From Zygnema cylindricum (Eukaryota; Streptophyta; Zygnematophyceae; Zygnematales; Zygnemataceae), in NCBI GenBank assembly GCA_037447655.1, contig JBBHKE010003302.1, positions 28,500-92,499 of the forward strand: 64,000 nucleotides of DNA, read 5' to 3'. A program made the translations under genes and the position numbers. This document shows positions 13,666 to 58,724 of the stretch, one piece after another. Positions within the stretch are counted from its first letter, which is position 1. Every line of letters starts with the position of its first letter. The notes beneath the pieces are model-generated. The model worked only from the letters and a program-made list of their open reading frames with translations. It searched no databases and was not told the DNA's origin.

Positions 13666-13681
13666 TAAAGGTTTAAGGGAG

Positions 13682-19032: not shown

Positions 19033-19063
19033 GGAGGACGGACGAAGAAAGTGTTTCCTCCTC

Positions 19064-20092
19064 CCTCACAATCGAGAAACTATGATCACCCATCTCCATC
19101 AGCAATGTGGACACTTTAGGCAAGAGCATACTACCTCTTTGGTTATAGGATCTTATTGGTGGCACGGGCTGCGGACCCAAGTCAACCGAATAATACAAAC
19201 TTGCTCCTCTAGGGATAGAGTAAAAGTGACTTTTGACAAAAAGGGCGAAACCAAGCTCCATTCCCTTCCCATCCGAGGAATGTTTTATCGATGGTCTTTG
19301 TACCTTTTAGGGCTTTTTCCAACTAGCAGACAGGGGAACCACTTCGTGTTGGTCATGATCGAACATTTTTCAAAATGGATAGAGTTGCTGGTTTTTCCCC
19401 GAAAAGAGTCCAAATCAAATAGAGATGTTTTTTTTTAAAGGGTGTTGTCACAATTTGGGGCGCCAACAGAGATTTTAAGAGACGAAGGCTTCGAATTTGT
19501 CAGAGAATTTTTTAACATTTGGGAGAAATGCCTCATAAACCATCGGTTGAATAGTCGTGACCACCCACAAGCGGACGGTTTGGCCGAAAGGTGCGTGCAA
19601 ACAGTTAAGCAGTCTCCACATAAATATGTAGTTAAATAAGATTTGGGAGAGTGGGACCGAAGGGTTCCTTGGATTCCCATGGGATACAGATTCAGCCGCC
19701 AAGCTTCCCTCCACTTCTATAGCCCTTACTTCATTTTATTTGGACGCATCCCATCTTGTTTGGAGCTGCCTTGGCCCAAGCACTTGTCCTTCAGAAATGG
19801 ATGACCAGGGGACTGTCGAAAATTGATCGCCGACAGAGCTAAAATATTCCATTGAGAGATGCCTCTTGCCATGGGGAATTTACGAGCGGCTCAACACTGG
19901 GATCAACTGTGGTATTCTCAACGCCGGAGCGGAAATTATGTGCCTCGACAAAGGCTATTTATGCCCGAGGACTTTCTGTATAGGATGGAACAGAAAAAAG
20001 ACACGCACGATATTTTTGTCGGGCGGGTAATCTTGAAAGTGGTGGAGGTTTCTAACAAAGGAGTTCTTACTTTAGAGGGGAAGGATGGTTGA
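19064..20092 (+). pseudogene. Gypsy D1 integrase
   Basis: The zinc domain is HLHQQCGHF...CSSRD (last Cys changed). The first core Asp region is eroded (YLLGLFPTSRQ), the second Asp remains (LRDEGFEF) and Glu remains (ADGLAERCVQTVK). The C-terminal domain follows at 19859-20092 (MPEDFLYRMEQKK). Stops lie at 19438 and 19639. No chromodomain was recognised. Confidence 0.8.
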
Positions 20093-22134: not shown

Positions 22135-23107
22135 ACTAAGTAAGTCATTAAATGAGATTAACAAAATAAAGGCAGCTTTGAATTCCAAGTTTGAAATGAA
22201 CGATTTAGGGGAGGCAAAGTACATTCTCGGAATTCAAGTAGAAAGGGATAGAGATTGGAGAATAATCTATCTAACGCAGCGTGAAGCGATTGGGAACATG
22301 CTTGAAAAGTTTGGCATAGCAGAGGCAAAGGGAAGTGCCACTCCCATGGAATTTAAGCAAAAAGTGTAAGGCACGGAGACCGATGGAGGAGTCGTTTCTG
22401 ATGACACCTTGGAATCGAGGAGGCAAATTCTATGGCTGCCATTCGATATCGTCAGATTGTTGGCAGCCTAATCTACTTCATGAACTGCACACGCCCAGAC
22501 ATCGCGGCTGCAGTTGGTACTCTAATCCGGAGTTTACAAAATCCGAGGAGATCGGATAGGGAGGCAGCAAAGAGGGTCCTTCAATATCTTGCAGGGACAC
22601 GGAATCTACAACTTGCTCTCGGTGGAGATGAAGTTAAAATTCAGACTTGGAGCGATGCGAGTTACGAACACATGCCAAGCCGCCGCTCCACTATCGGATT
22701 CATTCTGAAGATTGGAAATCGAACATGCTGCTAGAGCAGCAAACTTCAAAAAGTCACAGCTCAGTCTACAATGGAGGGTGAATACATGGCAGCCAGCTCA
22801 ACTATCAAGGAGTTACTTTGGGTAAAGTCTCTCCTTCAAGAACTTCATTTCATGCAATCTAGACCTGAAATAGTGTGGTGTGACAACCAGGCACCTATAG
22901 CGATTGCATCTAACCTAAGTCATCACTTCAAAAGCAAGCACATTGATATCAAGCTACATTTTGTCTGAGAGAAGGTGATAAACAAAATTTTAAAGCTTAG
23001 TTATTTGCCAGATGAGATGATGGTAGCAGATATGATGACTAAGCCTTTACCTGCACCTAAATTGAAGTTTTGTAGAGAGGCATGCGGATTTAGTGACTGA
23101 TAGAGTG
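22135..23107 (+). pseudogene. Copia RT end and RNase H (duplicate of B)
   Basis: It starts inside RT (SKSLNEINKIKAALN, DLGEAKYILGIQVERD), followed by GSLIYFMNCTRPDIAA and RNase H motifs WSDAS, MEGEYMA and CDNQAP. It carries the same stops as element B. It has no 5' part, so it is a passenger of the duplication. Confidence 0.85.
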
Positions 23108-23123
23108 TAAAGGTTTAAGGGAG

Positions 23124-25203
23124 TGTTGTTTTTGGAAACCTTTAGTCCTCTATTTATCTCACTGTTATACTGCCATGCTGCGCTTAGTTTGACATCGTAG
23201 CTGGAAACCTGTAATCCTCTCTATATTTCGTTGTTTTGCTGCTATGCTGCGCAGCTCTAATATCACAGCTGCGCTGGTGGAACACCGCAGCTATAGCAGC
23301 TTGAGTGAATAGCTGCGCTGCTCTAAAACATCACAGCTGCGGTGGTAGAGCGCCGCAGCCATAGCAGTTTGTGTGAATGATGAATTGTCGTAGACAAGAT
23401 TTAGTGTTCTATGTAACTCCAAAGAGAGTACACAGACTTGGTACACCTCAGGCACACGGGTCGGTCCGTGAGGGAGTTAAGTGTAGAAATTGATGGTTCT
23501 TTTTAAGTATTTTCTAGGTCTAAATTAAAATACAAAAAGAAGCCGAGGCAGTCTATCTCTAACTTCTCTCTCCAAACTCCCACACTTGTCGCAGACACTG
23601 GGGAGTTGGAGTGGAAGCTATAGCCAGGGCTACCTTGGCTATCTAGAGGTTTACGGGAAATGGATTAGTTTATATACCGATAAGTAGTTTATTTACAAAA
23701 AAGGATAGATGTCGGAACCGGGATTTTATCTTGGTACCTGCGGAAAGAAAAGTAGGCGGTAGCCGGTAGTCGTAGCCGTTAAGTCTAAGACTAATGATGT
23801 ATGATATAGGGTTTGATATTTATTTGAATATTATTACGCAGGATAATTCATTTAACTACAACTGTTTACGAGATACATAGATCCAATTATGTAAAAGTAC
23901 GGATTACGATATATGTAAGAAACTAGTACCGCGCATTTATTTCTTTAACGAAACAAATACCGCACATGTATTTATTACGGCTACGATTGAAATCTGCATT
24001 CAATCGGACGGCCGAAAGAAAGCCGAGATCGCGAAAGAGAATCTCAGCGGTTTGTGGTCATCGCCACATTGGATGACACGTGGCAAAATTACGTTGGATC
24101 GCGGCATCCCGGGGATTACGAGACCGAACCCAAATATGACATGTGTTGACTTTTAGGCCATATCGTACAGTTTTTGTACATAAAGTACACCGACAGATGT
24201 ACTTTTATGTACGGAAGTGTGATATGATTGGTTTCGTACATCAGTAGATAGAGTTTGTGAGAGAGATAAGACTTAGAAAAAATGGTAGATAGGACCCTCT
24301 CTCCCGGAGAGGTTCTGTACAAAAGGTCAACTTTGACCCTCCATAACTTACTTCTCAGGGGAGCAAATTCAGAGATTCTTTTTTGCTATCGACTCAAGGG
24401 AGTCTTGCGTTCACAAAGGTGAAGGTGGTCAGAGTTTTTGTTTCCCAGGGTGGTGGTTATTCGTGCTGAAAGACAAAGGGGTCAGGGTTATCCTAGAGGC
24501 TTTGTGTGAGCTGCTTACTTTGAGGTCCTATGGAGGTCTCAGAGTTGCATTAAGGTTGTTTTATCTGGACGACGAAGTACAGATTCATTTGGGGACCGGA
24601 TTTACACGTGGAGGTTCATATTCATTGGGGAACGAATGCGTGGACGGCGGATGGAGTTTGTCGTCATTCTTGGAAGAGAAATGTTGATTGCGCCGTCATT
24701 TCGGTGAACGAACTTTTGTTGCGCACTTTAGCGGCGGCTAGAGTTAAAAGATTGATGTAAATACTTTGTACGGCAGACGGTGAAGGTTTAGTTTGGTAAA
24801 GATTTAGTGTACCGGTGGATCATGGTAATTGTGGTACGGTTAAGATCAGTTGTAGGCTCACTTGTATATGTAGGACTTATAATATTTTGGAAGCTAGGAT
24901 TTCCTTGTATGAAAACTACGAAGCAATTTTTGGGGTTTTTGAATTGTAAGATCATTGTGATCTTTAGGCAAAACTTTGTGAAATTCTGCATGTGTTTTCT
25001 TTGGTGTATTTTCTTTATTGTGACAAATTTGCAGACCTAGTGTGTGTCTGGTTTGCTTGGGATTTCATTGTGAAGTTGGTCATTTGTGGGTATTCGTGAG
25101 AGTTTCCTCTTTGTACTTTGATTGTGATTATGGCAACTGTTGTTGCTGCTGCTGTTGCTGCTTCTTCTTCTTCTTCAAGGGCACCAGCTGCCTCAAATAA
25201 ACA
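23124..25203 (+). repeat. Copia B 3' LTR duplicate, split by a solo LTR
   Basis: The parts are 23124-23481 and 24555-25203. The nested solo LTR with its TTAAG duplications is carried along, so the duplication is younger than that insertion. Confidence 0.88.
23482..24549 (+). mobile_element. Solo LTR C1, duplicated copy
   Basis: This copy of 14040-15107 has TTAAG at 23477-23481 and 24550-24554. It was not independently inserted. Confidence 0.88.
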
Positions 25204-25442
25204 TATGTCACCCAAACACCAACAAAACTGCTTGCCACCGCCCATACATCGCCAAAGAGATATAGCAATTCCGTATTTCTAAGCGGTGGGAAAAGGAATA
25301 CCAGGAAATATTATCACCAGTATCCACACTTCGATGGGAAGTGGATCAATCATTCTCAATTTTTTTTACCAACGAAATGACTTCCAAGCCTCAGTCGGAA
25401 TCTTCGGAGGTTCAACCCTAGAGACAAAAACTCAATCGATAG

Positions 25443-26448
25443 GTGGTGTCATTATTAGTTCCGGAATCCGGACTACGGATACTATCACTTTTCTCTGGAA
25501 TCAGCTCGGACCTAAAAGTTGTCTTGAATGCAGGATATAAGGTGGAGTCTTATATTGTCGTGGGAATCTCACCCGATGCCCGGGCTGTTAGTGAGCATCG
25601 AGTACAACAGCTTCACCAACTGTATCCCCAACACCTTCCCGTGTTCGTAATCTGTAAAGCTCACCGAAGTCTGCCCCAAAATGTTGAAAACATCCTGGCA
25701 CCACATTTAGCCATGCTCAAGAGAGTAGATCCGGTAGTAGCAGGATGGCCGTGTCAGGGATACTCTCTAGCAGGGAAAGGTAAGGGACGTCAAGACAGCC
25801 GAAGCCGAAATTTCTTTCAAATGATCAAATTAGTTCCCTGGCTGCAGCAACTTCAAGATACGCCCTGTGGGGTACATCTTGGAGAATGTCCACCCTGAAG
25901 ACAATAAAAGAAAACATGTCGCCAATAGCTGGAATCAAGTTTTGTAGGTTCTAGGGGTTCCACTTGTTTTCGATGCACCACAAATGGGATTAAGAGCTCA
26001 CTGAGTAAGGGCTTACTGGACTAATCTAATCCCATTTTCCAACCTCCACCAACTCTTATAGAACCACAAAACAGATCCCCATATCACTCTACAATAGATT
26101 CTTGGACCAGGGTGGATGGCCACTCACATGACAAAGGTTGATCGTCTCCCATTCTTTTGGTGCAACAACCCAGGGGCCCCACAGCGAGCCCTGCCAACTC
26201 GGGTTTCCTTCCCCAATAGCCATGCATATCGAAAAGGAGTGGCAGGGATGATATTTGACAGCTGGAGCTTGGACAACTCTGACGATCGAGGAATGAGAAC
26301 AGGCAATGGGATTCCAATCTATAACAACGGCTGCACCAAGTATTTTAGATCTTCAAAGGTGCAACCTACTCGGACAGAGCATGGATATGAATGCGGTCTC
26401 ATAGGTGTTAAAACATTCCCTTTCCCAATCTCCTCAGATAAAGGCTAG
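25443..26448 (+). pseudogene. C5 DNA methyltransferase domain (duplicate)
   Basis: It is essentially identical to the D1 domain. An open 151-codon block (25443-25898) holds motif I (LSLFSGISSD) and the catalytic loop GWPCQGYS, followed by the same frameshift before motif VI. A few bases upstream one substitution creates a TAG where D1 has AAG (near 25418). The same decay is shared, so it supplies no independent evidence of selection. Confidence 0.85.
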
Positions 26449-26680
26449 TAACCTTCAAGCTCCAAAAGTGTTAGCGAGTAGGCCACTGTGCAGCTTGAGG
26501 GGGGGAGAGAAGAAAAGAGAAAAATTCACAAATTCCATCCAGTGGGGGGGAGCGGAGGCTCGGAAAGAGACAACTTAGCGGAAGTTGTCAGTAGTGGTGT
26601 CCTAAACAGAGGGGGAGACATAGACCCACAAGTAGGACCGGAATTTGATATCACCAGGTGGGGCCGACCAGCGGAAGCAT

Positions 26681-27730
26681 GGGCAGCAGTAGAGCCATGA
26701 AAAATGGATTGGACCTTAGGGGAGCAGTTAGACCACCAGCAGAAGGCCCAACTCTCAGAATTACTTGCAAAAAACAAAGGTGTGATTTCTTGACAGACAC
26801 GGATGTAGGCATCTATAAAAAGACTCCTTTCAGAATAGACTTAATAGACAAGACAGCAACTATTTGGCAGAAGCAGTACCCTCTCAGTTTTAAAAAGATA
26901 GAGTTCATTACAGCCAAAGTCAAAACCTTGGTAGATGCCGGATTGGTGAAAGAGAGTACGAGACTCCATGGGTTTGCTTCCCCAACAGTTCTCCCTCCCA
27001 AGAAAGACTCGTCTGGGAAAATAGTAGATTTCCAGATGTAATGGGACTTTCGCATGCTGAACACGACCACCATTCCTAGCATATATCATATGCTAACCCC
27101 CGAAGAGATTTTCGACTCTCTTGCTGGGGCCACAATTTACTCTACCTTTGACATAAAAAATGGGTTTCACCAAATTGATATGGAACCTAAATATCGGGAG
27201 ATAATAACATTTTGGGCAGGTTTTAGGTTGTATAATTGGTTTTATATGCCATTTGGATTGAAAAACGCACTTGCAAAGTTCCAGCGAGCAATGGACAAAG
27301 CTCTGTGAGAAATTGACTACGCCAGATGCTAGATCAACAATGTTATTATTTTCTCAAAAACATTTGAAAAGCACTTGGAGCACACACAGGTTGTCCTCCA
27401 GCTCCTTCAAGCAGCGAGCTTGAAATGTCACCCGGGCAAAGGTATTTTTGGAGTTCAAAAAATAGTTTACCTGGGACATGAAGTTAAACCCGGACAGTGG
27501 GTCCCCACATGGTCAAGGTAGCCGCCCTTGACGCTCTCCCTCCACCTCAAGACATCTCAGCCCTCCGTACCTTTTTGGGTTTCGCTAATTTCTATCGCTA
27601 CTTCATCCCCGAGTTCAACATTCAAGCTCAACCCTTAAATCAGTAACTACAAAAGGACCAAGAGTGGCACTAGGCCGAGGAACAGCAGATATCTTTCAAG
27701 TTTTGAAGGATGCCCTGAAGTAGCACCGCT
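26681..27730 (+). pseudogene. Gypsy reverse transcriptase (duplicate; D2)
   Basis: Same as the D1 RT, but it keeps the normal KNGFHQI segment (3 bases longer). The catalytic site is likewise INNV (near 27333). Stops lie at 27041 and 27308. Confidence 0.83.
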
Positions 27731-28260
27731 TACTTTGGATGCCCGATCATCAGAAACCTTTCCTCCTTTACAGCGATTCGAGCAGGTTTAGATTGGGGGC
27801 AGTTTTTGCACAAATAGATGATGTACGGGCAGAATATGTGGTTGCTTACGCCAGCAGGAGCAATAACCGAGCGCAAGGGAATTATAGCAATTACCATGGA
27901 GAGCTCCTCGCAGTTGTTTGGGAAATTCAGCATTTCCAGCCCTATTTATACGGGGTCCGTTTCACTCTTATAACAGACCATCAACCTCTCAAATGGATCA
28001 TAGAAAACAGTAAGTTGACCGGCAAACTCGTTAGATGCGTTCTGATCTTGTAGGAATACATCTTCAGTATCATCCACCGGGCACGGGAAATCCACGAGAA
28101 TGCCGACGGACTTAGCTGAAATCGCGATCCCTTCACGCTGGATTCTACCGGAGCACGGCACGATGGAGATCAATGTGGGACTTATTCGAACCTCTTCCTC
28201 TTTGATCTGGCTTCCGCGATCTCCAAGGAACGGTCCACTTTTGCGGCGGACGTGAAGGGG
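27731..28260 (+). pseudogene. Gypsy D2 RNase H
   Basis: Asp/Glu/Asp positions are present (LLYSDSSRF, GELLAVVW, LITDHQPLKW). A TAG after RCVLIL at 28053 interrupts it. From about 27922 the sequence departs from D1, so this is where the duplicate joins a different family member. Confidence 0.8.
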
Positions 28261-28479
28261 CAGGCACCGATAAAAGAATAAAAGGAAAGATATCAGGAAT
28301 GACCACGATTCCCTAAAATCCATCCAGAAGGAATCTCCTCTTTCACACTTGCCTGGAGTTCAATTGTTCCGTGTGCAGATCTGGATGGCGGCGTATGACT
28401 GGAACCGAGGTATTCTTCTCCGGAAATGGGCTGACAGAACGAGGAAAGTGGTTCCTCCCCCGCAGATCGCGAAACTTTG

Positions 28480-29249
28480 ATCACCCCTCTCCATAAGCAA
28501 TGCCGGCACTTCGGGCAGAAAAATACCACTTATATGGTCACAGGACTTTATTGGTGGTACAGTTTGCAGACCCCAATCAACCGAATTCTGCAAAATTGCT
28601 CTTCTTGCGATGGAGATTGAGTTAAAGCAGCTTTTGACAAAAAAGGCAGAACCAACCTTCCCATCGAGGGGATGTTTTATCGATGGCTTTTGATCTTTTT
28701 GGGCCTCTTCCGACCAGCAGACGAAAGAATCGCTTTGTGCTGGTCATGATCGAACTTTTTTCAAAATGGATAGAGTTGGTGGTTTTGCCTCGGAATGAGT
28801 CCAAAGCTATTGTAGATACCTTCCTTCATAGAGTGTTGTCACAATTTGGAGCGCCTTCAAAGGTTCTAACAGATCAAGGATCTGAATTTGCCGGAGAATT
28901 CTCAACCCTTTTGGAGAAATGTCTCATCGACCATCGACTTACCAGTTGTGACCACCCCCAAGCCGACAGTTTGGACGAAAGGTGCGTACAAACAGTGAAG
29001 CGGTCACTACGAAAATATGCAGTTGAAGAAGATTTGGGGGAGTGGGACAGGCGGGTGTCATGGATCCACATGGGATACAAGTTCAGCCAACAAGCTTCTC
29101 TCCATTCCTATAGCCCTTACTACATTTTATTTGGACAACATCCCATCCTCCCCGGCGTTGCTTCAGCCCAGGCAGTGGTCCTCCCTGAGATGGATAATCA
29201 AGAGACAGTTGAGAAAATGATCGCTGACAGAGCCAAAGTGTTCCACTGA
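28480..29249 (+). pseudogene. Gypsy D2 integrase (core nearly intact)
   Basis: The zinc domain is at about 28485-28615 (H...H...CSSCD) with a stop after it. A 188-codon open frame follows (28683-29249) with Asp (FDLFGPLP), Asp (LTDQGSEF) and Glu (DERCVQTVK), plus the C-terminal region (YSPYYILFGQHP). This is the best integrase of the family in the window. The remaining C-terminal domain runs to about 29500 with frame breaks. Confidence 0.82.
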
Positions 29250-29981: not shown

Positions 29982-30062
29982 AGCTCGTGTGCATTCTCGG
30001 CACATTTCAGCTCGTGTGCATTCTCGGCACATTTCAGCTCGTGTGCATTCTCAGCACATTTC
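29982..30062 (+). repeat. 27-bp tandem repeat, three copies
   Basis: The unit starts AGCTCGTGTGCATTCTCGGC and occurs at 29982, 30009 and 30036. Element E has one unit at the same place (49247). It lies directly at the left end of LTR segment L. Confidence 0.85.
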
Positions 30063-30510
30063 TACTCCCAGGCTTTCCAAGGCCTCATTCAACCATGTAT
30101 GGACTAAAACATACAGGGAACGGGAGGACAACCAATCGGATCACATCTTTGTATTCTCACCTAGGAGCACCATGCAATTTAGTTCACCTCAAACAGAGGT
30201 CGAACAACGGAGTTAGTCCGTTGCAACAATGGCGGCTCCATGACATGGAATCAGTTCTATGTAGCTCTAGCAGAGGGATACATTGTGGAAATCCACATAA
30301 CCTTTGAGATTGTCTTGTAGATTTTGCTCTTAGCCGTCAATAGGATGTTAGTTCATGCTCAACAGACGGGCAGAGCATTTATTACGTTGGGTCAAAGTTA
30401 GACGTTTTCACGTCAATTCAGGACTTTGTTGCCTATAAGTGTACCATAAGAGGACCTTTTGCTCCAAATCCAACCAGAGCCAGTCACCTTAATTTTTTGC
30501 CTAAGTGTAG

Positions 30511-31564
30511 TGAAACTCTGAGACCTCCATAAGTCCTCAGAGTGGATTGCTTCCAAGAAGCCTCTAGGATAACCCTAACCCCTTTGTGTTTCAGCAAAAA
30601 TAACTCTCACCCTGGCAAAAAATAACTCTGACCAACGTCACCGCTGTGAAGGCAAGACTCCCCTGAGTCGATAGCAAAAAAGAATCTCTAAATTTGCTCC
30701 CTTGAGCAATAAGTTATGGATGGTCAAAGTTGACCTTTTGTACATTAGCTCTCTGGGAGAGAGGGTCCTATCTTCTAATTTTCTAAGTCCTATCTCTCTC
30801 ACAGACTCTATCTACTGATGTATGGAGCCAATCAGATTTCAGTTCCGTACACAAAAGTACAGCTGCCGGTGTACTTTCTGTACGGACACTGTACGACATG
30901 GCCTAAATGTCGACACGTGGTATGTCCGGATTCGCTCCCTTAATCCTTGGAGATGTCGCGATCCAATGTCATTCCGCCACATGTCATCCGATGTCGCGAT
31001 GACCACAAACCGCCGAAATCCTCTTTCGCGATCTCGGCGTTAATTCCAGCCGTCCGATTAAATTCACATTTAATCGTAGCCGTAATAAATACATGCACGG
31101 TATTCGTTTCACTAAAGAAATAAATGCGCGGTATTGGTTTCTTATCCATACCGTAATCCGTACTTTTACATTACTGGATATATGTCTCCCGTAAACAGTT
31201 ACAGTTAAATGAACTATCCTATGTATAAATGTTTAAATAATTATCAAACCATATGGTACTTAACACTACTTCTAGACTTAACGGCTAAGGCTAACGGCTA
31301 CCAGCTATCTGCCGGCCGTTAGGTATCAGGATCAAATCCTGTGGCCGGCACATATCTTTTAGTAAATAAACCCCTAACTAATATATATTTTCATGTAAAC
31401 CTCTGGATAGCCTAGGTAGCCATGGCTCTAGCTCCCTCTCCAATTTCTCATTGACTGCGACAAGTTTGAGAGTTGAAGAGAGAAGTTAGAGGTAGACTGC
31501 CTCGGCTTCTTTCTTATTTCTATTTAGACCTAAAAAATACTTTAAAAGACCATTAATTTCTACA
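30511..31564 (-). mobile_element. Solo LTR C2 (TSD TGTAG)
   Basis: On the plus strand it begins TGAAACTCTGAGACC and ends TTTCTACA, with TGTAG at 30506-30510 and 31565-31569. It is inserted in the gypsy LTR. It contains the GTAC hairpin (about 30847-30885), the T-arm-like hairpin and the conserved-loop hairpin. Confidence 0.9.
31310..31350 (+). repeat. tRNA T-arm/acceptor-like hairpin in solo LTR C2
   Basis: A perfect 8-bp outer stem TGCCGGCC/GGCCGGCA (31310-31317 with 31343-31350) encloses CAGG-ATCAAAT-CCTG. The outer stem sequence differs from that in the TR-GAG LTR (828-861) but still pairs. Confidence 0.65.
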
Positions 31565-32282
31565 TGTAGTACATACTATTTTGTCTTATGTTAGTACGAT
31601 AACAATTGCTGGCCGGTGATTGGCTTCTGGCATTTCTTTGACTTTGGCCCCTGCAGTAGAACAAACTCTGATGTATAATTCACTTGGGGCCGAAAAAGAC
31701 AGGTTGCTTTTCAGTACTGTCTCTTGATAAAAACCTTAAAAAATTCCAACAAATCTTCTTTTGGAGAACCTTTATTTGTTATGTGATTGTGACCCTACTG
31801 CCATCTTGGTTTGCATTTGTCCTTTGTAGGGATCGTAGTTCGGTTGGGTAGTTAGCACTATCTTCTCTTTTTAGGCGATTTGGGACTTGTGGCTCTTTGA
31901 TACCGAAAGGGGTCTTTCCGGTTCCGGGTTGCGGAAACCAAGGAGTTAAGGAGGACATTACCTGTTTTGATGTCTTCAAGAGATATTTCATCTCCTCTTC
32001 TTGTCAGCGTTTCTGTTGGGGGTAGGTTAAGCTCGTTTGCTTCTATTTTGAATCCTATCTTTATCTCTAATTTTCTAAGGCAAGGTGATATTGTTAATTC
32101 TGAAATAGCTTATTATTCTTTTATTTTTCCGTTATTCCGCGTGGAAGTGCCATTGTTCTCTCTTTGGTAGTCTTTTTTGGGCTTCGTTTGCGTTTAAGCG
32201 AGGGTTAACTACTACAATCTTTTGGACCAGAACAGTGGGTTTTGAGGGAATCTTTATTAGATTTCCAGCGGAGCAGCAAAAT

Positions 32283-32534: not shown

Positions 32535-34166
32535 ATTTTTTTTTTTAAGATTGGTGATCGGTGATGAGGGTGAAATGAACACCATAAAGATACGGTGGAA
32601 AGTGTTGGATGGCCCAAACAGCTGCAAGAAGCTCCCCATGATAGCTATTGAAAGAGGCTTCTGCCTTTTTGTTGCTACGGCTTGCATAGGCTACCACGTA
32701 TTCGGCTCCCAAATCATCAAGTTGAGCTAATAGGACCCCTTATCCAAATTTACTCCAATCGGTATAAATAATAAATGGTGGTTCGGCATACGAAGAATCT
32801 GACTCTCTTAAAGTGCATTCTTCAAAAATTGGAATGCCTCTTCTTGCTCTTCCTTCCATTGCCACTCTTCATCTTTCCTCAAGAGTAAATTGAGGGCATG
32901 ACTGCTAAAATCTAGAACAAATATTCTGTAATAGTTAGCTAGCACCAAAAATGTGCGAAGTGATGAAACATCAGTGGGAGCTGGCAATGCATCCAAAGCA
33001 ACGATTTTAACCATATGTGGACCTACGGTCCCAAGGGTAACCTCATGTACCAAATACAAAATCTAGTCTACCCGAACTATGTATTTACTTGGATGACACT
33101 TTAAGCCTGCCACTCTCAGAGCATGAAACACCATTTGTAAATGAATGAGGTGATCCTTGAAATTTTTATAAAAAATGGTCACGTCGTCAATATAACACCA
33201 AGCACATTCAATATCTCGTAAAGCTTCATCCATTACTTGTTGGAATTTGGCGGATGCATTTTTCAATCCAAAAGGCATATAAAGCCACTCGTATAACGTG
33301 TTACCCGCCCAAAATGCGGTCCTCTCTCGATGCTTCGGTTCCACAGGTACTTGGTGAAATCCCTACTTCAAATCCAAGGTGGAATATATAGTTCCGCCAG
33401 TCAATGCCTCAAATATTTCTTCAAGAGTGGGCATAGGTTACTTTTCCGATATAGTGGCTGCATTCAGTATTCGATAATCTCCACACATTCAGAAATCGAC
33501 AATCTTCCTTGCACAATCTTTCTTCCAAAGAAGTACCGTTGGTGAGGCAAACCCATGAAGCCCAGTGCTTTCGTGTACTCATCTTGAATCAACCAAACAT
33601 TGGATTTTCTCTTCAGAAATTCTTTCTCCAAGTGGCTCAAATGATATTGTTTTTGCCAAACCGTCGCTGATTCGTCCACTAAGTCAATCCTGAATGGTGT
33701 GCCCTTGTAAATTCCAACATCTGTATCAGCCCTTGAAAACACATCCTGATTCCTTCCCAATATATCCACAATTGTAGACTTTTGGCTCTTTTCTAGTTGT
33801 TCCCCAATAATTCAATCCATCTTTCCCGGTTCTACAACTGCAAAAATTTCCGGTGGTCTTGTCCACTAGGACGGATCAAACTCGTCCCCCCCCCCCCACC
33901 CTTTTGCTTTATCTCCTTGCTTTAACACCCTACTAGACACCCACAAAACATCCTCTATCTTATGCCCTTGCTTCTTTCGTTCTTTTGCCCCCCCCACCCC
34001 CGTTGATTTTTTTTTGTTGGATCTTCTGATGAATTTTTCTATCTCTCCCCCCTTGAAAGCGCTAGTGTGACCTGCATAGCCAGCCAAGCTAGAGCTTGAA
34101 AAAATGAAGCGCGTTCTTGGTGAGAATGCAAGGGACCATTAGATAGTGAAAGACCACCTAACTATC
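32535..34166 (-). pseudogene. Inverted DNMT-gypsy fragment N (RNase H, RT, end of DNMT)
   Basis: Read from 34166 down: the end of the DNMT domain (HSLAF region), the linker before RT (33850-34087), RT motifs (ADTDVGIYKGTPFRIDL, WQKQYHLSH at 33769-33464; YMPFGLKNASAKFQ and an intact catalytic CYIDDV within 33344-33063; LRTFLVLANYYRIF at 33059-32808), then RNase H (AQLDDLGAEYVVAYASRSN, about 32740-32640). It is the same family as D1, D2 and E, truncated on both sides and interrupted by stops. Copia G inserted at its upstream side (34171). Confidence 0.8.
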
Positions 34167-34170
34167 GTAA

Positions 34171-35241
34171 TGTAGAAATTAATGGTTATTTTAGTATTTT
34201 CTAGGTCTAAACATGTAAAATTAAATGTAAAAAAAAAGCAGAGGCAGTCTACCTCTAACTCCTCTCTTCGGCTCCCACACTTGTCGCAGTCACTGAAGGT
34301 TAAAGAGGGAGCTAGAGCCATGGCTGTCTATGCTGTCTAGAGAGAGAGAGAGAATGAGAGACACGCGGCAAATTTTGGTAGGTTTACCAAAATGTACTTG
34401 ACGGACCCAAGATTTGATCCTAGTACTTGCCATCCGTCAAGTCAACAATAGCCGATAACTTTATCTTATAGTCTAGGATCACTACTGAGTTATATAGGGT
34501 TTGATAAGTATTTAAAGATGTACCTATACATAAATTCATTTAACGGCATAAACAAACATGTAACATAGACACAGTAAGAATATACGTACGGCTTATGGTA
34601 CTTTGCAAAACGAAAACCCCGCATTTGTTTTGACGGCAAAACAAATACCGCGCATTGATATTCGACAACTATAATTAAAAGTCAGTTTTGATTGAACGGC
34701 CACGATAGGTGTCGAGATCGCGGAATAGACGCTTTGGCGATTTTCGGTCACCGTCACTTAAAGCGCCACGTGGCACAACATCATTGGCTTGCGGTATCAG
34801 TGGAGAATATGCGAACTAATCAGGATATGGCAAGCGTCAACATTTCAGCCATGCCGTACGATAGACGTATAAAAAGTACTTCGACAGCAATACCTTTCTC
34901 TACAACACGGTCTCATGATTGGTGCCGTACTCTAATAGTAGAGGGTTTAGAGAGGGTTATATGACTTAGAATATTCGGTAGGTAGCCGCCTATCTCCCAG
35001 GGTGCTACTGCACAAAAGGTAAACTATGACCCTTCATAACTTACGGCTCAGGGGAGAAAATTCAAAGATTTTTTTTGCTATCGACTCATTGGAGTCTTCT
35101 CTTCGCAAGGGTGAAAGTTATCATAGTTTTTGTCTACCACGGTGGTATTTATTCTTGCTGAAACACAAAGGGGGCAGGGTTATCTTAGGGGCTTCGTGTG
35201 AGCTTCCTATTCTGAGGACTTACAGAGGTCTCAGAATTGCA
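34171..35241 (+). repeat. Copia G 5' LTR
   Basis: It begins TGTAGAAATTAATGG and ends GAATTGCA, followed by the primer-binding site. It carries the conserved-loop hairpin (about 34255-34318) and a T-arm-like hairpin (34399-34439). No matching 3' LTR is visible in the window. Confidence 0.85.
34399..34439 (-). repeat. tRNA T-arm/acceptor-like hairpin in copia G LTR
   Basis: On the minus strand the outer stem TGACGGAT/GTCCGTCA has seven Watson-Crick pairs and one T-G wobble around CTAGG-ATCAAAT-CTTGG. On the plus strand the wobbles become A-C mismatches. Confidence 0.6.
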
Positions 35242-35390
35242 CGTTATGGGCCCACCCTTTAGGGTGCCCATTTTTAATAGAAATGGTTTCATATACTGGA
35301 GGAGTATGATGATAGGAGCTCTATGTGAGAAAAGGTTTTAGGGGATAGTGAGTGGACAAGTGAGGCGTCCATCCAGCCTGGGTATTCTTG
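35242..35390 (+). pseudogene. Copia G primer site and gag start
   Basis: The primer site at 35242-35256 differs from GGTTATGGGCCCACC only in its first base. The gag leader then follows (VMGPP, EKRF-GIVSGQV with a stop), matching element F at 43206-43360. Element M interrupts it here; gag resumes at 39763. Confidence 0.75.
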
Positions 35391-49241: not shown

Positions 49242-50428
49242 TGTCAAGCTCGTGTGCGTCTTCGGCACATTTGCACTCCCAGGAATTCCGGGGCCTCATT
49301 CCACTTTGTACGGACTCTAGGGTACGGAGAAAGAAGAGGACAACTAGCCAGATCAGATCTTTATATTTTCACTCTAGAGCCCTAAGCAATTAAGTTCACC
49401 TAAAACGGAGGCCGAACGGCGGAGTTAGTCCAGTGCAAAGCGTCTGCTCCATTATATTGTGTGTTCTATGTAGCTCTAGTAGAGGGATACATTAGAGAAC
49501 GACACGTAACCTTTGGGATTATCCCGTAGATCCTACTGTGAGCTGTCAGTAGGATGTTAGTTTAGGCCCAACAGCCGGGCAAAGCATTAATGACTTTGGG
49601 TAAAAGTTAGGCGGTTTCACGTCGAGTCAGAACTTTGTTTCCATTTTGTGTATCATAGGAGGACCCTTAACCGTAAATCCAGCCGGGACCAGTCGTCTAA
49701 CTTTTAGCCCAGAGTGTAGTACAGTCTGTTTTGTCTTATGTCCGTACGATAACAATTGCTGGCGGCTGATTGGCTTGTCACATTGCTTTGACTTTGGAAC
49801 TTGCAGTAGGACAAACTCTGGTTGTATAAGGCACTTTGGGGCCAAAGGAGACAGGTTGCTTTTCAGTACTGTCTCCTGAGGAAACCCCCAGAGAATTAAA
49901 TCAATCTTTCTGTTGGAGAACGATTGCATTGTGTCGTTGACTCTATTGCCATCTTTGTTTTGTATTGTCTTTTGTGGAGACCATAGCACGGGTGGGTAGT
50001 TGGCACTATCTCCTCTTTTGGGCGGTTTGGACTTTCGCTGTTTGAAACTAAGAAGAGTCTTGTCGGATCCTTGCGGTGGAACCGCGAGGGGTGAGGGAGA
50101 CTCATACCGGTCTTCGAGGCCATTGGGAGAGGTTTTCTTCTGCTGAGTTTGGTCATCGTTGCACTCCGGGATATGTGAATTCGCTTCACCATTATTATTT
50201 ATTTCTATCTTTAATTCCATTCTCTGGGGCAAGGTGATATTGTTTAATCTGAAAAGCCGATATTTGTTATTTCTATATTTCTGCGTGGGAGTTATTTGCA
50301 CACTCTTGTGGTCATCTTTGGGTTTGTCCAGAGTTTTTGCGGAAAGGATCGGACGACTCTCATTTCCTTCCTATTTTTTGGAGAGTAGCTAGGAGTGTGG
50401 CATTTAGTGGGCTTCCAGCGGAGTAGCA
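49242..50428 (+). repeat. Gypsy E LTR segment L
   Basis: It is homologous to 29977-32278 (minus the solo LTR there). It ends GGAGTAGCA. It contains the 24-nt segment 49848-49871 that is complementary to the primer-site region. Confidence 0.8.
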
Positions 50429-50498: not shown

Positions 50499-53400
50499 GG
50501 GGATTTAGATCTTCTTCTCCAGTCAGCTAAGGGGGGAGGAGAAGTTCAGGATAAGGATCTTCCGGGTGTCAGATCGGACGAGCAGGAGAGGCAGGAAGCG
50601 GCGGCCCAGGAGGAAGAGTCACAGGTGCCCGAGGGAGCACCCCCCTTTGGCTCACCTGTACACATAGAGCGGTTTCTTAAGGGAGAAATGCCCCGGGGGG
50701 TTGCGGTCGACACTCCTCCTACGCCCCCAGAGGGGAGACCCTCTCCTCTACCTCCTCCAGTCTTTTCCCCTGAAAACTTTCCGACGTTGTCCGAGGCTGC
50801 CAAGGCTAGGGCTACGGAGAAGGTAGAAAGACAGACTTTTGCTCCCCAATCCCGTAGGAAGGGTTTGGCTCATAAGGAAACGGTCCCAGGCCACCCTCCC
50901 GAGGTGGTACGTTATACCAGATCCAAGTCTCCGATAGTGGAGACATACATGGATCGTGAACTTTTGTCGGATCCTAACCGACCCGGTCGAAGGAGATTTT
51001 AGCCCTTCGCAATATCCATGAATTGAAGGTTAAGAAGGAGCTGATGCAACGGGTTGCCAGAAGCGACCGAGCTTGGATCATACGCCCAGTGGGAGGAGTA
51101 GTGGAGATCCTGAGTAGCTCGTCCGAAAGTGGCTTTCCCATCTCAGTCCGAGAGCAACCGGAGATGCCGTCTACTTCACCACAACAGCCCTCCATATCTC
51201 AGGAAACTGCTACTAGTAGACCTTCTAGGGGCAGAGCCACTTCTCGGGGCCGGACCAGGGAAGGGAGTAGCAAGCGGAAGTTACCTGAGCCTAAGAGAGA
51301 TTTCCGGTTCAAGCATCGGGACAGCAAAGGTCGATTTGCTCCCCTAGTCAAAGAAGAGCCATTCTTTCCTTCTGCCTCAATTCCCCCAAGTTCCATGTCT
51401 CCTTCCACACCAGTTGTCCGACCATCCGAAGGACTATGGCGTTCAAGGCCTACGGACCCCGAGGTACCCGGTTTGGGGATTGCGGATCTCTCGGGTGTGG
51501 TGAGCAGCACCCAGAAATTGGTTGAGATTCTGCGATCGCAGGATAAGGCTACTACGGGGGCCGGACCCGTCGCAATAGATTGGGATGCCCTTGAAGAGAA
51601 AGGAAGAGAGCATTGGAACAAGAGCTGATCCTGATACGGGAGGCTAGACGGAGATCTGGGGGAATCCTTAGTGGACTGGTAGCACCTCCTCGTAGAACCG
51701 GTCCCGTGACGGAAGTACAACCTCTGGAACAGGCAACTCCTCCTATCACGCGAGATCCCCGGACTTCACCAGAACCGAGACCAGAATCTCCTCTTCAGCG
51801 GGAAGGGGAGGAAACAACATGGCCAAACAAAAAGGGGTTGGGTGCAGATTTGCCGAGTAATCCGATAGCCACGGCTACAGATGTCCCTTCATTTGTCTCG
51901 GTCGAGGGATCTTCTACCGTGGAGGCCGTGGTGCAGCTACAACCCGACCAGAGACTACACATTTCCCTCGAGCTTACCACTCCTCCTCCATCACCACCTC
52001 ACGCCTCCTCTCCCTCGCAATCAATCTTCCTCGCGGGAGCAGTCCGTGGGTCACCAGGTCCACTTCGCCTATCCCCCAAACCAGACGTCTACTCGCCACC
52101 TCACAGACGGTCGCCATCCTCTATTTTCGGAACTCCTCCTCCCAAAGATTCCCAGAGGCGACCTAGGAAGCAGACTCCTTTCAGGAAACAGTCACCTTCT
52201 CCTCCAAGCTCCCAGTCTTCACCTTCTCCGCTGTCATCCATTCCCCGGGGAATTAGACCTCGTCTTCACATACCATCGGAAGAGGAAATTCTCCGTCAAG
52301 CACGCGCTTCTCCTCGATTTAGAGGAGCAGACGACTATCCAACTTTTTCAAGTTCAAGACCTTCCTCAGCGGGGGGGGGGGGGCACTGCTGGTACAACTG
52401 CCCTTCCTATTGGAAGAGGGACCGGTTCGGATCTCGAGGTAGCAGATTCTGGGGCAATCTCACCGGCTCAGTTTGTCAGCCCGACCGGACAGGCGTCACC
52501 AAGGTTCAACAACCCTACCGAAGAAGAAAGGAGAATGGGAGACGTCCGGATCTTCACCAGAGACAACTCGGGAATTGCTTTCTCTGATTTTGAACTGCTG
52601 TGGAAATCCTTCACGCAGTCCGAAATTAACAAATACAGGGGAGGGGCCATTCCAACAGATTTTGAAACAACCCTGTTTCGGATGATGGTAAATTATCTAG
52701 CCGGAGGAGCTTTGGCCGATTATAAGGAGCGTCAACCTTTGTTGATGGCCCCCAGTATCAAAATATCGGATCCGGATCTGGACGCCGAGGCTCTTCAGGC
52801 AGCAGCCGACCAGACTGCTGCAGCCGCAGCTCCTCTCACCCCCAATTTCACCATGGATATGAAACTTCACGCCCATGGCAGGGCCTATGTTAACCACCTG
52901 CAGGCGGTACAGGCAGCCGAAGCAGCCACCAGGATGGTTGCCAATCCTAATCCCTGTACCACTCTTCTGGACGCTTGGAGACTTCTTTACACAGAAAGGA
53001 ACGAAACTGCCATCAAGGAGTTCACAGACTTCCGCTATTTGAAGAATGAAACTCCACAGACGCTGTTCAACCGCCTCGCCTGCCTCTGCCAGAAGACCAT
53101 ACTGTCCACCATCGATACACCGGCTATGGCCACCAAGTATTATGTTGCTGTTCGAAATTCCTTCGGGCCAACAGGACAGGCAGCTCTGGACAATTGGAGT
53201 GCCAGCCAGGCTATACACGATCGGAATCCCACAGCTCAAGAAATTTCATTGGCGGCTATGAAATTGTATGATCATTTTGTTCATAGCGAGGCACGAGAAA
53301 AGGCTGTTACCGGGAAATCCAGAGCCAACTTTGCAGGTTTCGCCGGGGAAACATCGCTCAGCCTCGACGAACAGACAGAACTGCAAGCTTTGCGGAAGCT

Positions 53401-53992
53401 TAAAGGGAAACAGGAAGCGGAATCCCGACCAGAACCTGCAATGGGAGGAGATGAAAAAGTTTTTCTTTACGACTGCCTGAACTGTAACCAGACCGGTCAC
53501 GGATGGAAGAGGTGCCCCCGAAAGCTCAAACCAGAACTCGCCATCAAACAGAAGGAGTTTGAGAGAGAGCGTGCGGAACGAACAAGGAAACAGCAAGAAC
53601 GCAAACAAGGAGGCGGGGGAGGAGACCGAACTCCGGTCACTAAGGAAACCTATAAACCTATTTCACGCTCTGAAACCGCCAAAATGTCTCAATCCCAGTT
53701 GAGACAAATCCAACTTCCGAAATTCGATGACGCTCAAATCTCTAATGAGCTAAGGGGGAAGTATACTACTGAGGGGTCAAAATGTGAAGCTTGTGGGTTC
53801 ATGGGACACAAAGAAGGACAATGCTTTCGGAAAAATGGGGTTCCGAAGGAGATGATGCAGTATGCATTGTTTACAGACGAACTGGAAACTGCCGTTAATC
53901 CTCTGCCACTACAACTTTTGTATCCCTGGGGACGATCTCCAAATGACCCGGGCCCCAGCAGACTGACAACGGAACATATCATTCAGAAATAG
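50499..53992 (+). pseudogene. Gypsy E gag (large, frameshifted)
   Basis: It is open from 50499 with no clear ATG. The N-terminal half is Pro/Ser/Glu-rich and spread over three frames (to 51002; to 51628; 51613 to about 52370), joined by single-base shifts. A run of 13 G (52371-52383) marks the next frame change. The following frame to 53992 contains the capsid-like region (DFELLWKSFTQSEINKYRGG, LFNRLACLCQ), then two CCHC zinc knuckles (CLNCNQTGHGWKRC and CEACGFMGHKEGQC) separated by a basic coiled stretch. It would build the gypsy particle and bind RNA. The shifts may be decay or, at the G run, sequencing slippage. Confidence 0.78.
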
Positions 53993-55432
53993 AGCACTCA
54001 GTTGGCCGCTTTGGCAACAGAACTGACCGCTCTCCGACTGAAATCCTCTGAGCGCACTCCTCAACCTCTTACGCCGGCACAGAAACTGCAGAAACAAAAA
54101 CAAGAACTGCTACAAAAGCTAGCAAAATTGGAGCAGCAGACCACGGTGGGTGGAGATGATGATGACCTGCTGGGTTGGGATATGGAGCCTCCAAAGGTTC
54201 ATCATGCTCGAACATTTCTGTCCGGAGCATGGAACGTTGGTGTAGGGGATAGTCGCAGGCAATTGCGTTCTACATTGGCCTCCCAAAGAAAAGATAAACA
54301 ACCGATGGATCAAAAGGACCACAGTCAGAAAGCCACAGGTCCCTTATCCTTTACCCCACGAGCAGTCCTTCTGAACAGTAACATTGGACTGGGACTCTAG
54401 CCGACTGACCCGCCTCCTCTAGCTCCGACAAAACTTCCTCCCGGTTTTGAAGATTACAAGAAGACACAGCCGAAAGAAAAAACTTCAACCACTGAAACAG
54501 ATCAGGAGTGGTTCGACAGATACATGGCTGAGAGACTGTCCACAGATCCGCCAGTTACACCTCCTACGGGGATTTCTGACGCAGAGAGTGAGGAAGCAGG
54601 GGGGGGGGAACAGGAGAAATCGGAAGACGAGGACTCACCCATTTCATCGCCCAAAACTCTCCCTCCTTCCTCCAAACCGGCAGTTATGCTAGTACGACAC
54701 TTGATGCCCTACGCCTTGACGCATGTCAAAATGCTAGCTTCCTCCCACAACCTGCCCAAAAAAACCCTCATTAAGGCATAGGGGAAGAAATTCACACTAG
54801 GAGGAAAAGGGTCGCGTTGGCAGAACCGCCCAACACAGTCTTCATGTCGGCAGAACCAAAAACCTCTATGGCAAATAGGGATTATAAGACCCTTTCGGTG
54901 GCTCTTATTCTCAACAAGACGGGAAATTTTAAACTTAAAGGATACGGCGGGTACCAGGATGTAGTGGTGGATACCGGAGCTCTTCCAAACTTAATAACTA
55001 CATCAGCATTACAACAAATGTCCGAGGAACTCCGGCCAAAAATCAGTCAAAGTGACATATGCTTCAACATAGTCAGCAGTGGCAGCCAACCAATATATGG
55101 GATCATTAAAGCCATGGAAATCGAATTTTCTGACGACGCAGGCCAGCACGTGCAGATTCGGCTTCCCTTCCTAGTGGTGGAAGGTAAGCAATTTGAAATT
55201 TTGCTGGGCATGGCTACGTGGACAAGGTTGAACATGGAGTTGAGTGTATGGAAGGAACAAATTATAGTCTCAAACCTTGAGGATCCGGAAGGCACAAAAG
55301 TAGTGGTCCCCTTAAATTTGTGGAACCGGGGAAAAACGACTGTTCCGGTGTCTGGATGCTATCCCGTCTACTCTGCCTCAACCCCCTCGGAGCTGTTCAA
55401 ATACTCTAATGATATCGCTGATTCTATCTAGC
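53993..55432 (+). pseudogene. Gypsy E spacer and aspartic protease
   Basis: After a TAG at 53990-53992 the same frame continues with a Leu/Gln-rich coiled coil (LQKQKQELLQKLAKLEQQ), an acidic spacer and HLMPYALTHVKMLASS. One frame change near 54780 follows. The retropepsin domain lies at 54817-55431: active site VVVDTGALPNLI (Asp-Thr-Gly intact), flap region and ILLGMATW. A TAG at 55430-55432 separates it from the DNMT, but the frame is the same, so protease and DNMT were one polyprotein. Confidence 0.83.
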
Positions 55433-55485: not shown

Positions 55486-57032
55486 ATGGCCACACTTCGG
55501 AGGGAAGTGGACAGGAGCTTAACTGCAATATCACCCGTAGCAGCAAAGGTCCCCCGGGCGGAACTTCCAACGGTTCCTAACAAAGAGAAAGACTTCAATC
55601 GACAAGTGGTGTCACTACAAATCCCGCTTTCAGGACTTAGGATTCTTTCCCTGTTTTCTGGCATTAGTTCCGATCTGGAAGCCGTCCTGAAAGCTGGATA
55701 CCAAGTAGAAACTTACTCGGCAATCGAGATTGACCCGGACGCCCGTGTAGTCAGTGAGTACCGCTTGGAACAGCTGCACCAACTTACCCCTAGCAACTCC
55801 TGGTGTGCGCCATGCGTAACTCTCATCGCACGCTTCCCCAGAATGTGGATAATATCACAGATTCCCATTTGGAAAAGCTCGGAAGGGTAGACCTGGTGGT
55901 CACTAGATGGCCATGCCAGGGGTATTAATTAGCAGTACAAGGCCGAGGACACCAGGACGTCCGTAGCAGAACTTTCTTTCAAATGACCAGATTAATAACA
56001 GGGTTAGAGGAACGCCAGGACACACCAGTGGGGTACGTTTTGGAGAACGTTCACCCCACAGATGATAAGAGAAAATAGGTGGTCAACAGCTGAAACCAAG
56101 TGACCAAGGTTCTAGGGACTCCCATAGTGTTTGATGCAGCTCAGATCGGATCGAGAGCCCACAGAGTTCGGGCATATTGGACCAACTTGGTTCCCCTTCC
56201 AATCCTCCAACAGCTGTTGAAAACACAGGTTAGGGATCCCAACATTACGGTCCAACAGATCTTCGGACCGGGGCGAATGGCCACACCGGTGATCACAGCC
56301 GACAAAGCACCCTTCTTCTGTTGTAATAAGCCTGGGTATCCACGTAGGGCCCTACCAACTCTAGTATCTTTTCCTAACAGCCACGCTTACCGAAAGAACG
56401 CACCAGGAATGATCTTTGACAGTACAATCGCCACGTGGACAACGCTGAATATTACAGAACGGGAAGAAGCAATGGGGTTTCAACCGGGAACCACAGCTGC
56501 GCCAGGGGTATCCGCCTCAACAAGGTGCAGTTTAATCGGACAAAGCATGGATTTAAATGCAATTACTTGGGTGCTGAAACATTCTCTTGCATTCTCAAGC
56601 CTTCAGTCTCCACAATCACGGACAACATACCTTCAAGCTCCACAGTTGCTGGCCATGCAAACAACTCTAAAGCTTGAGAGGGGGAGAGAGACAAGGAGGG
56701 AAAAATTAACATTCACCAAATTCCCAGGAATTTCCTCAGTGGGGAGGAGCAATGACACACTGGACCCAGGAGTTTCCTTAGTGGGGGGGAACAGAGTCTC
56801 CGAACAGGACAGCTTAGAGGAAGTTGTCAGCAGCAGCGTTTTAACAGCCGAACAAGGGACAGACCCACTGGTAGAGCTGAACTTCGACATCTCTCTCTTG
56901 GGGAGACCACTGGAAGCATTGGCGGCAGAGGATACTGGGAAGATGGACTGGACTCTAGGTGAACAGCTAGACCCACAGCAGAAGGCCCCGCTCTCCAAGC
57001 TGTTACAAGAGAACTGGCAGGTGTTTGCCTAG
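55486..57032 (+). pseudogene. C5 cytosine DNA methyltransferase domain (gypsy E)
   Basis: This is the most complete DNMT of the window. Motif I is LRILSLFSGISSDLEAVLKAG, with the acidic SAM-binding segment AIEIDPDARVVSEYR (55640-55770). A frameshift lies near 55800. Motif IV is WPCQGY at about 55905 with the catalytic Cys, directly followed by TAA. Motif VI is YVLENVHP (about 56034-56057). Motif VIII is RAHRVRAYWTNL (about 56150-56190). A Cys-containing segment (FFCCNKPG) follows, and the motif X region is LNITEREEAMGF...LIGQSMDLNAITWVL. From 56100 to RT the frame is open, except for a TAG at 57030, and continuous with RT. The motif order is canonical and closest in look to DNMT3. The domain could methylate the element's own cDNA or its target sites; that role is inference. 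Confidence 0.88.
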
Positions 57033-57890
57033 TCTGACACAGATGTAGGGATCTATAAGGGGACTCATTTTCGGATTGACCTGATCGACGAGACGGCTAT
57101 TGTGTGGCAGAAACAGTACCCTCTTAGTTTCAAGGAGAAGGAGTTCATCACTTCAAAGGTGCACACTTTGGTGGAAGCTGGGCTGGTTCAAGAGAGTACA
57201 GGACTACATGGTTTTGCCTCACCAACCGTGCATCCGCCAAAGAAAGACTCCTCCGGAAAAACTGTAGATTTCCGGATGTGTGGGGACTATCGGATGCTCA
57301 ACGCGGCAACTGTCTCCGACCGTTATCCTATGCCCACCCCGGAAGAGATTTTCGACTCTCTTGCTGGGGCCACCATTTACTCTACTTTGGATATGAAAAA
57401 TGGATTCCACCAGATTGCAATGGAGCCGAAACACCGAGAGAGGACTGCTTTTTGGGCCGGATCCAGGCTATATGAATGGTTATACATGCCATTTGGCCTC
57501 AAGAATGCACCTGCCAAATTCCAACGGGCCATGGACGAGGCTCTCCAGGGAATTGACATCGCACGGTGTTTTATCGACGATGTTATCATTTTCTCCAGGA
57601 CATTCGCAGAACACTTGGAGCACATACAGATTGTTCTCCGGGCACTCCAAGCAGCGGGCTTGAAGTGTCACTCGGGGAAGGGCATCTTTGGGGTGCAAAA
57701 AATTATTTATCTGGGTCATGAGGTGACTCCCGCGACAGTGGGTCCCCACATGGTTATGGTGGCAGCCCTAGACGCTCTTCCACCCCCTCAGGACATTTCT
57801 GCTCTTCGTACTTTCCTGGGCCTTGCCAATTATTACCGGCGGTTTATTCCTGAATTCAGTAGCCACGATCAGCCATTGAACCAATTGTAA
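57033..57890 (+). pseudogene. Gypsy E reverse transcriptase (catalytic site intact)
   Basis: A 262-codon open block (57102-57890) follows a short lead with DTDVGIYKGTHFRIDL. Motifs are WQKQYPLSFKEKEF, PPKKDSSGKTVDFRMCGDYR, catalytic LDMKNGFHQI, YMPFGLKNAPAKFQRAMD, FIDDVIIFS with both Asp (about 57575), and LRTFLGLANYYRRFIPEFS. It is complete by Ty3/gypsy standards and lies in the same frame as the DNMT C-terminus. A TAA at 57888-57890 separates it from RNase H. Confidence 0.87.
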
Positions 57891-58541
57891 CGAAAGGACC
57901 AGGAGTGGCAGTGGAAGGAATAACAGCAGATAGCGTTCCAATTCCTGAAGGATTCCCTCAAACAGCATCCTGTACTCCAGATGCCCGATCACCAGCGGCC
58001 TTTTCTCCTTTATACAGATTGGAGCAGGTTCGGATTGGGAGTAGTTTTGGCTCAATTGGACGACGCACAGGCTAAGTATGTAGTTGCCTACGCAAGCCGG
58101 AGTAATAACAGAGCCGAGGGGAATTACAACAGTTACCATAAAGGAATTACTCACCGCGGTGTGGGCCATCCAGCACTTCCGGCCTTACCTCTATGGAGTA
58201 CACTTCACCCTTATTACGGATCACCAGCCCCTCAAATGGATCATGGAGAACAGTAAGTTGACTGGAAAGCTGGCGAGATGGGTTCTCATCTTGCAGGAAT
58301 ATGATTTCAGCATCATCCATAGAGCCGGGGAGATTCATGGGAATGTCGACGGACTCAGCAGGAATCCGTACCCTTCCACCAGAGACTCTACTAGGACGCG
58401 GCATGACGAGGACCCTGAGCTCAGCCTGGGAGTTATCCGGGCTTCCTGTGCTTTTATTTGGCTGCCTCGAGCCAAAGTAGAAATATCAACTTTTGCTGCC
58501 GATGTGGAGGGGCAGGCCCCCATTGGAGCGGTACAGGGTAC
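57891..58541 (+). pseudogene. Gypsy E RNase H
   Basis: RNase H positions are LLYTDWSRFGLG (Asp), KELLTAVWAIQ (Glu) and LITDHQPLKW (Asp), followed by FSIIHRAGEIHGNVDGLSR. A one-base shift lies near 58140. The sequence passes at about 58541 directly into LTR segment R. The integrase present in D1 and D2 after this point is missing, an internal deletion. Confidence 0.83.
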
Positions 58542-58724
58542 TTTTCTTTTCCACTCCATTCCTCCTTACTATCTATGCATATCCTTGAAGGGGGGGTAAT
58601 GAACAGAGATGGGCATTGTCACAGATCCGGAGAAGCATCAGCATTTGGGGTGGATTGCAGGTTTCTCATGCACACCTCTTTCGACATCTTACCTGAACCT
58701 CCCGGTTCCCAGGCACGCTCGACA
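58542..58724 (+). repeat. Gypsy E LTR segment R, 5'-truncated
   Basis: It is homologous to the later part of 32283-32524, ending CCAGGCACGCTCGACA. The first part (TGGGATATC...) is missing because of the integrase deletion. Confidence 0.75.

Follow-up and report, generated by a model that had tools for sequence, protein, structure and literature searches.

A DNMT3-type DNA methyltransferase domain in the Pol region of a Ty3/gypsy retrotransposon family known here from decayed copies, with a proposed role in methylation of element cDNA

Cytosine methylation is a main weapon against transposons, so that elements preserving a methylase of their own present a paradox, for which few testable systems exist. 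The locus studied here raises this question directly: does a Ty3/gypsy element in it encode a C5 DNA methyltransferase (DNMT) as a part of its Pol region, was the enzyme kept by selection, and what could it do for the element? The window, that is, the whole 64-kb stretch of DNA analysed, consists mostly of nested LTR retrotransposons. Our reading, which as a whole we find somewhat probable, is that they include a Ty3/gypsy family with a long-standing functional DNMT3-type domain in Pol, for which we propose methylation of the element's own cDNA.

One copy, element E, lies on the forward strand. It extends from near 49242, where a TG is found within Copia RT-like sequence, to a truncation at approximately 58.6 kb, and in order it comprises a likely LTR, a gag-like ORF, protease (PR), DNMT, reverse transcriptase (RT) and RNase H. 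The likely 5' LTR occupies 49242-50292, and two parts of it resemble sequence downstream of another copy, D1' (49247-49720 matches 30036-30511 at 76%, and 49715-50292 matches 31565-32148 at 72%); no second LTR was found in 48.8-64 kb, hence no LTR pair surrounds E. The gag-like ORF (51869-53989) is an open frame whose translation shows two CCHC zinc knuckles towards the C-terminus; it yields no Pfam match. The protease (54775-55428) matches Asp_protease_2 under the Pfam cut-off (E=0.0047) and is 68% identical to a fragment at 7880-8428. A TAG (55429-55431) marks the PR/DNMT boundary, and the DNMT follows in two parts, 55597-55779 (motif I, frame 1) and 55794-56600 (motifs IV, VI, VIII and X, frame 0). 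The linker between DNMT and RT (56601-57029) is an open frame, the last part of which resembles both the metagenome protein P0026 (42% over 38 residues) and the inverted fragment N described below. After a second TAG (57030-57032) come RT (57033-57887; RVT_1, E=5.7e-28) and RNase H (57966-58422, in two frames; RT_RNaseH, E=1.1e-18 for 58084-58596), and E is cut off soon after. The interval 55486-57890, to which the initial annotation had assigned a methyltransferase between protease and RT, thus comprises the DNMT, the linker and RT.

This assignment holds. Motifs I, IV (WPCQ), VI (LENV), VIII (RAHRVRAYW) and X are present at 55597-56600, with protease upstream and RT downstream, and the profile search proposed as a check is far above chance: PF00145 matches the joined pieces of E with E=1e-6 and 28.9 bits, and the first piece of D1 with 29.6 bits (cut-off 22). 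A comparison of the E domain with PDB sequences gives E=1.9e-12, and its best match of known structure, both by sequence and by fold, is DNMT3A/3B. Among the 54 structure matches listed, which do not include DNMT1, the domain is nearer to DNMT3 than to other C5 methyltransferase classes of known structure, DNMT2 being the weakest (E=0.0075). The catalytic Cys of motif IV and the Glu of motif VI are present in both E and D1. Motif IV reads PCQ in both copies, and not PCN as in DNMT3A, and 25 of the 30 rows of the family have Q at this position; the motif order is I-IV-VI-VIII-X and not the rearranged order of DRM. The domain is almost certainly a C5 methyltransferase of the DNMT3 type residing in a gypsy Pol.

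The DNMT copies of this window are dead. The frame had been described as continuous from protease to RT, interrupted by one TAG after the former and one before the latter; both TAGs are real (55429 and 57030), but the DNMT of E also shifts frame once, somewhere in 55779-55794, and has three in-frame stops (55926, 56076 and 56091). The DNMT of D1 is more decayed: its frame shifts twice, and the three frame pieces counted contain seven stops, among them one (15998) directly ahead of the DNMT core.

D1 occupies 15.8-19.9 kb of the forward strand and contains a DNMT region decayed into three frames (15824-16990), followed by RT, RNase H and integrase (17351-19852; tblastn for RT and RNase H, Integrase_H2C2 with E=1.1e-9 for 19013-19435, core match to 19852). 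Its counterpart D1', also on the forward strand, has a DNMT region at 25266-26428 and RT, RNase H and integrase at 26793-29246 (rve, E=3.1e-11 for 28638-29246). As initially annotated, both D1 and its duplicate hold the DNMT, but they belong to one duplicated block: the stretches 12693-18986 and 22135-28428 share 97.9% identity over 6.3 kb and are fully identical over 16001-17006, so D1' adds no independent DNMT. Identity falls to about 80% only past ~18.45 kb, and the integrase part is down to 76.6%, D1' being a part of a diverged copy beyond ~28.0 kb. The 6.3-kb block starts within a Copia RT, and its end slides into the diverged gypsy copy; its double presence suggests that copies recombined or that the assembly was wrongly joined here. 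An unfiltered profile search of the window revealed no DNMT copies besides E, D1 and D1', and hence the number of independent copies is two, E and D1.

Two more pieces of the family were identified. The inverted fragment N (32551-33880, reverse strand) was thought to keep the end of the DNMT; its alignment begins only 49 residues before the end of the linker that precedes RT and continues through RT and RNase H, and profile search finds no DNMT in it. The protease fragment at 7880-8428 (forward strand) belongs to a further copy, possibly to D1's own element; that it and D1 once made up a single element, now interrupted by Copia sequence from 8.46 to 15.7 kb, is only suggestive, and the junction on the D1 side, at 15.7 kb, is a truncated Copia start instead of a clean LTR edge. 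Both N and the protease fragment look truncated, and therefore do not demonstrate elements lacking the DNMT.

Several other features of the window were observed. The LTR-like sequence at 30036-32148, which matches the 5' end of E, is interrupted by approximately 1 kb (30511-31565), and this insert is 69% similar to 34170-35242 on the opposite strand. In the first 7 kb, a unit of ~3.18 kb is repeated, with stretches 1-300, 3176-3475 and 6352-6651 recurring three times at 100%, and related copies are found at 35517 and 38646 (96-97%). An unbroken Copia gag-integrase frame of 621 codons is located at 9859-11721; its top protein match is 40% over 68%, and with such distant kin the host elements are poorly represented in the protein database searched. 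There were no tRNA or Rfam matches within the window, and two words for initiator tRNA primer sites proved uninformative, with one match (1.13 expected) and three matches (0.75 expected). GC and CpG profiles gave no pointer to the host.

The divergence between E and D1 carries a record of past selection. The nucleotide alignment of their DNMTs is 66% identical, and differences at codon positions 1, 2 and 3 number 82/332, 60/333 and 196/332, an excess at the third position reached in none of 5000 permutations. Piecewise codon counts for the DNMT give pN 0.198 and pS 0.775 over 329 codons (two pieces overlap by ~13 codons), which resembles RT (279 codons, pN 0.115, pS 0.726), RNase H (93 codons, pN 0.143, pS 0.784) and the protease of E compared with 7880-8428 (180 codons, pN 0.181, pS 0.742); silent sites are close to saturation, and an exact pN/pS ratio is not claimed. 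In the out-of-frame control, the linker read outside the Pol frame of E, the two values coincide (75 codons, pN 0.329, pS 0.328). Judging by these substitution patterns, the DNMT was very probably kept by selection while the family diverged.

E and D1 also share the TAG at the PR/DNMT boundary (55429 in E, 15821-15823 in D1), which stands at the same place within identical ten bases, TAGCAATTCC. Within the window, the nine bases TAGCAATTC are confined to this TAG of E, D1 and the duplicate D1'. The context of the shared TAG fits UAG CAR YYA, the readthrough signal of tobamoviruses, at five of six downstream positions. Moreover, both copies come from lineages under selection, and therefore a shared ancestral stop would need to be compatible with function. 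On the other hand, both copies hold other stops and, being in decay, could have this one in common by chance. The surroundings are well conserved in any case: the alignment around the TAG has 62 identical columns out of 102, and a longer stretch of identity (13 bases) lies close by. Downstream of the TAG, RNA folding does not exceed that of shuffled sequences (z of -0.92 and 0.27), and in the Closterium relative P0029 PR is read into DNMT without a stop. Programmed readthrough at this UAG may have operated in the family, but on the sequence context we consider it doubtful. The TAG of E at 57030 was also considered as a programmed signal and rejected: it is absent from D1, which has TTG there, and from N, which has AGG.

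Protein searches with E gave five proteins, and a small profile gave 31 among 8000 candidates sharing most words; together they comprise 35 different proteins. One of these, P0005, is a bacterial-type enzyme with a full-length PF00145 match and served as an outgroup, and the other 34 are relatives, of which 25 were scanned with Pfam and all 34 compared with the E pieces. None of the proteins from the profile search bears the name Klebsormidium. Retroelement domains within the same protein are seen in four relatives (P0026, P0029, P0017 and P0034); most relatives are short contigs, where the absence of such domains says little. In P0026, DNMT is followed by an RT 61% identical to that of E over 174 residues. 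In P0029, from Closterium sp. NIES-53, the DNMT is preceded by a zinc knuckle and by a protease that matches Pfam with E=5e-5, under the cut-off, the gene model being without the middle of the DNMT domain. RNase H precedes DNMT in P0017 (by Pfam) and P0034 (by blastp), which places the enzyme at a different position in Pol than in the window copies. An integrase after the DNMT of P0009 seemed possible by eye, and Pfam gave none. A profile search of IMG/VR returned two loci, one of which (L001, 900-1500) resembles an ordinary C5 methyltransferase frame, and no relative of P0006 was found there.

The tree has 34 rows and was built without four short rows of the family; two distant rows serve as its outgroup, one of them long-branched, and the lone DNMT3A row is partial and on a long branch. 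In this tree, E and D1 form a pair at 100/99. E, D1, P0006, P0003 and P0026 group together at 94/82, below the program's starred level, and the Closterium pair, P0024 and P0029, stands apart at 100/99. P0024 and P0029 carry this DNMT sequence family into Zygnematophyceae. The catalytic Cys is conserved in 29 of the 30 rows covering it, the exception being P0003, a frame-broken piece; of the 32 rows that cover motif VI, 31 have its Glu. As for motif IV, in 15 of 30 covering rows Glu replaces Pro before the catalytic Cys, giving WECQ or FECQ (P0007, P0009-P0011, P0014, P0016-P0019, P0021, P0023, P0024, P0030, P0031 and P0034); to our knowledge, Glu at this position is very unusual for C5 methyltransferases.

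Combining the copies yields the Pol order PR-RT-RNase H-IN expected of Ty3/gypsy: E gives PR-DNMT-RT-RNase H and D1 gives DNMT-RT-RNase H-IN, no single copy being complete. The coding order of the family would thus be gag - PR - DNMT - RT - RNase H - IN. Because the domain lies within the Pol region, the enzyme is expected in the particle with RT and IN, where it would meet the element cDNA and could methylate it before or at integration. A new copy would then enter the genome pre-marked, and might pass for DNA of the host or do it little damage. If the shared UAG after PR was indeed read through, and this is a guess, the DNMT and the downstream products would have been made only by that route. 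Self-methylation of cDNA by the element enzyme is a plausible step, to which we give slightly less than even credence. The CpG observed/expected ratio is 0.64 in E, 0.58 in the D1 block (0.51 in its DNMT), 0.68 in the window, and 0.56 and 0.71 in two Copia copies, and no clear footprint of CG self-methylation is seen in these values.

Other explanations of the domain were weighed against this one. That a piece of a host gene was captured once, without function, and copied passively would agree with every DNMT copy in the window being broken and with D1' being merely a duplicate of D1; but the codon-position bias between the two independent copies counts strongly against an unused one-off capture, and related DNMTs are joined to PR or RT elsewhere, so that we give this reading almost no weight. 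The same bias, together with the PR-DNMT join of P0029 and the DNMT-RT join of P0026, supports the initial view of the enzyme as a fixed part of a multi-copy family.

A selected domain could also have acted on the host, for instance by methylation or heterochromatin formation at target sites, steering integration or expression. In other gypsy elements, Pol-borne domains such as chromodomains direct integration, and chromatin at insertion sites is among the subjects discussed in PMC5890265; the ORFs scanned yielded no targeting domain, and a host target appears unlikely. Less likely still is an active enzyme with RNA of the element or host as its main target, serving to package or stabilize that RNA. 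Enzymes of the DNMT2 branch do have tRNA substrates, but it is DNMT3A/3B that sequence and fold favour here, with DNMT2 the weakest match listed. RNA methylation was raised for the LINE class in PMC5890265. Methylation of the element's own cDNA by a DNMT3-type Pol domain remains our preferred reading. In a bolder version of it, one ancient DNMT3-type capture would have founded a broad green-lineage Ty3/gypsy lineage, in which the enzyme later changed its place in Pol, the order being PR-DNMT-RT in the window, P0026 and P0029 and RNase H-DNMT in P0017 and P0034; the window branch, in a host outside the reported lineages and perhaps a land plant, would have placed it behind programmed UAG readthrough. 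We regard this scenario as improbable.

The literature lead given in the initial annotation, DNMT-carrying retrotransposons of dinoflagellates and Klebsormidium, is correct according to PMC5890265. In the open-access literature searched, we found no other paper that first describes a DNMT in a gypsy element, and none that mentions the Closterium members, gypsy elements with the order RNase H-DNMT, a Glu-Cys motif IV or the shared TAG. PMC6338049 and PMC12344493 cite PMC5890265, the latter naming LTR Copia and DIRS. PMC6338049, an opinion paper of 2019, describes transposons with DNA methylases as absent from land plants; were the host of the window a land plant, the family would contradict this. 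PMC6453930 deals with plant DNMT3 and its loss in angiosperms.

Animal DNMT3A/3B, the nearest solved structures to the window DNMT, differ from it by PCN in motif IV and in that the window enzyme is a part of a retroelement Pol; the latter also separates it from plant DRM, as does the motif order. SymbioDIRS-Dnmt3 and SymbioLINE-Dnmt of Symbiodinium are likewise retroelements encoding a C5 DNMT, but they belong to other classes (tyrosine recombinase and LINE) and are independent acquisitions according to the authors (PMC5890265). SymbioDIRS carries a Dnmt3-type enzyme, as does the window family, and the DNMT domains of two of its copies perform de novo CG methylation in yeast, whereas the Klebsormidium gypsy DNMT gave no methylation there, a result that the authors call inconclusive (PMC5890265).

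P0026, P0006 and P0003 (metagenome) and P0024 and P0029 (Closterium) belong to the DNMT family of E and D1, P0026 and P0029 each sharing one of its joins; unlike E and D1, P0029 has no stop between PR and DNMT and misses the domain middle in its gene model. These relatives in Closterium and in metagenome contigs suggest an old association, maintained by selection and wider in range than the one gypsy case found in print. That case is KnitGypsy-Dnmt3 of Klebsormidium nitens, an LTR Gypsy element with a Dnmt3-type domain inside its Pol ORF, purifying selection on the DNMT (Ka/Ks < 0.2) and repeats described as having a DIRS-like arrangement (legend of Fig. 4c; PMC5890265). It shares with E and D1 the Dnmt3-type domain within a gypsy Pol and the purifying selection (Ka/Ks there, codon-position bias here), a likeness at the level of the published description. 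KnitGypsy-Dnmt3 is a direct precedent, and the window family adds another gypsy element of that kind.
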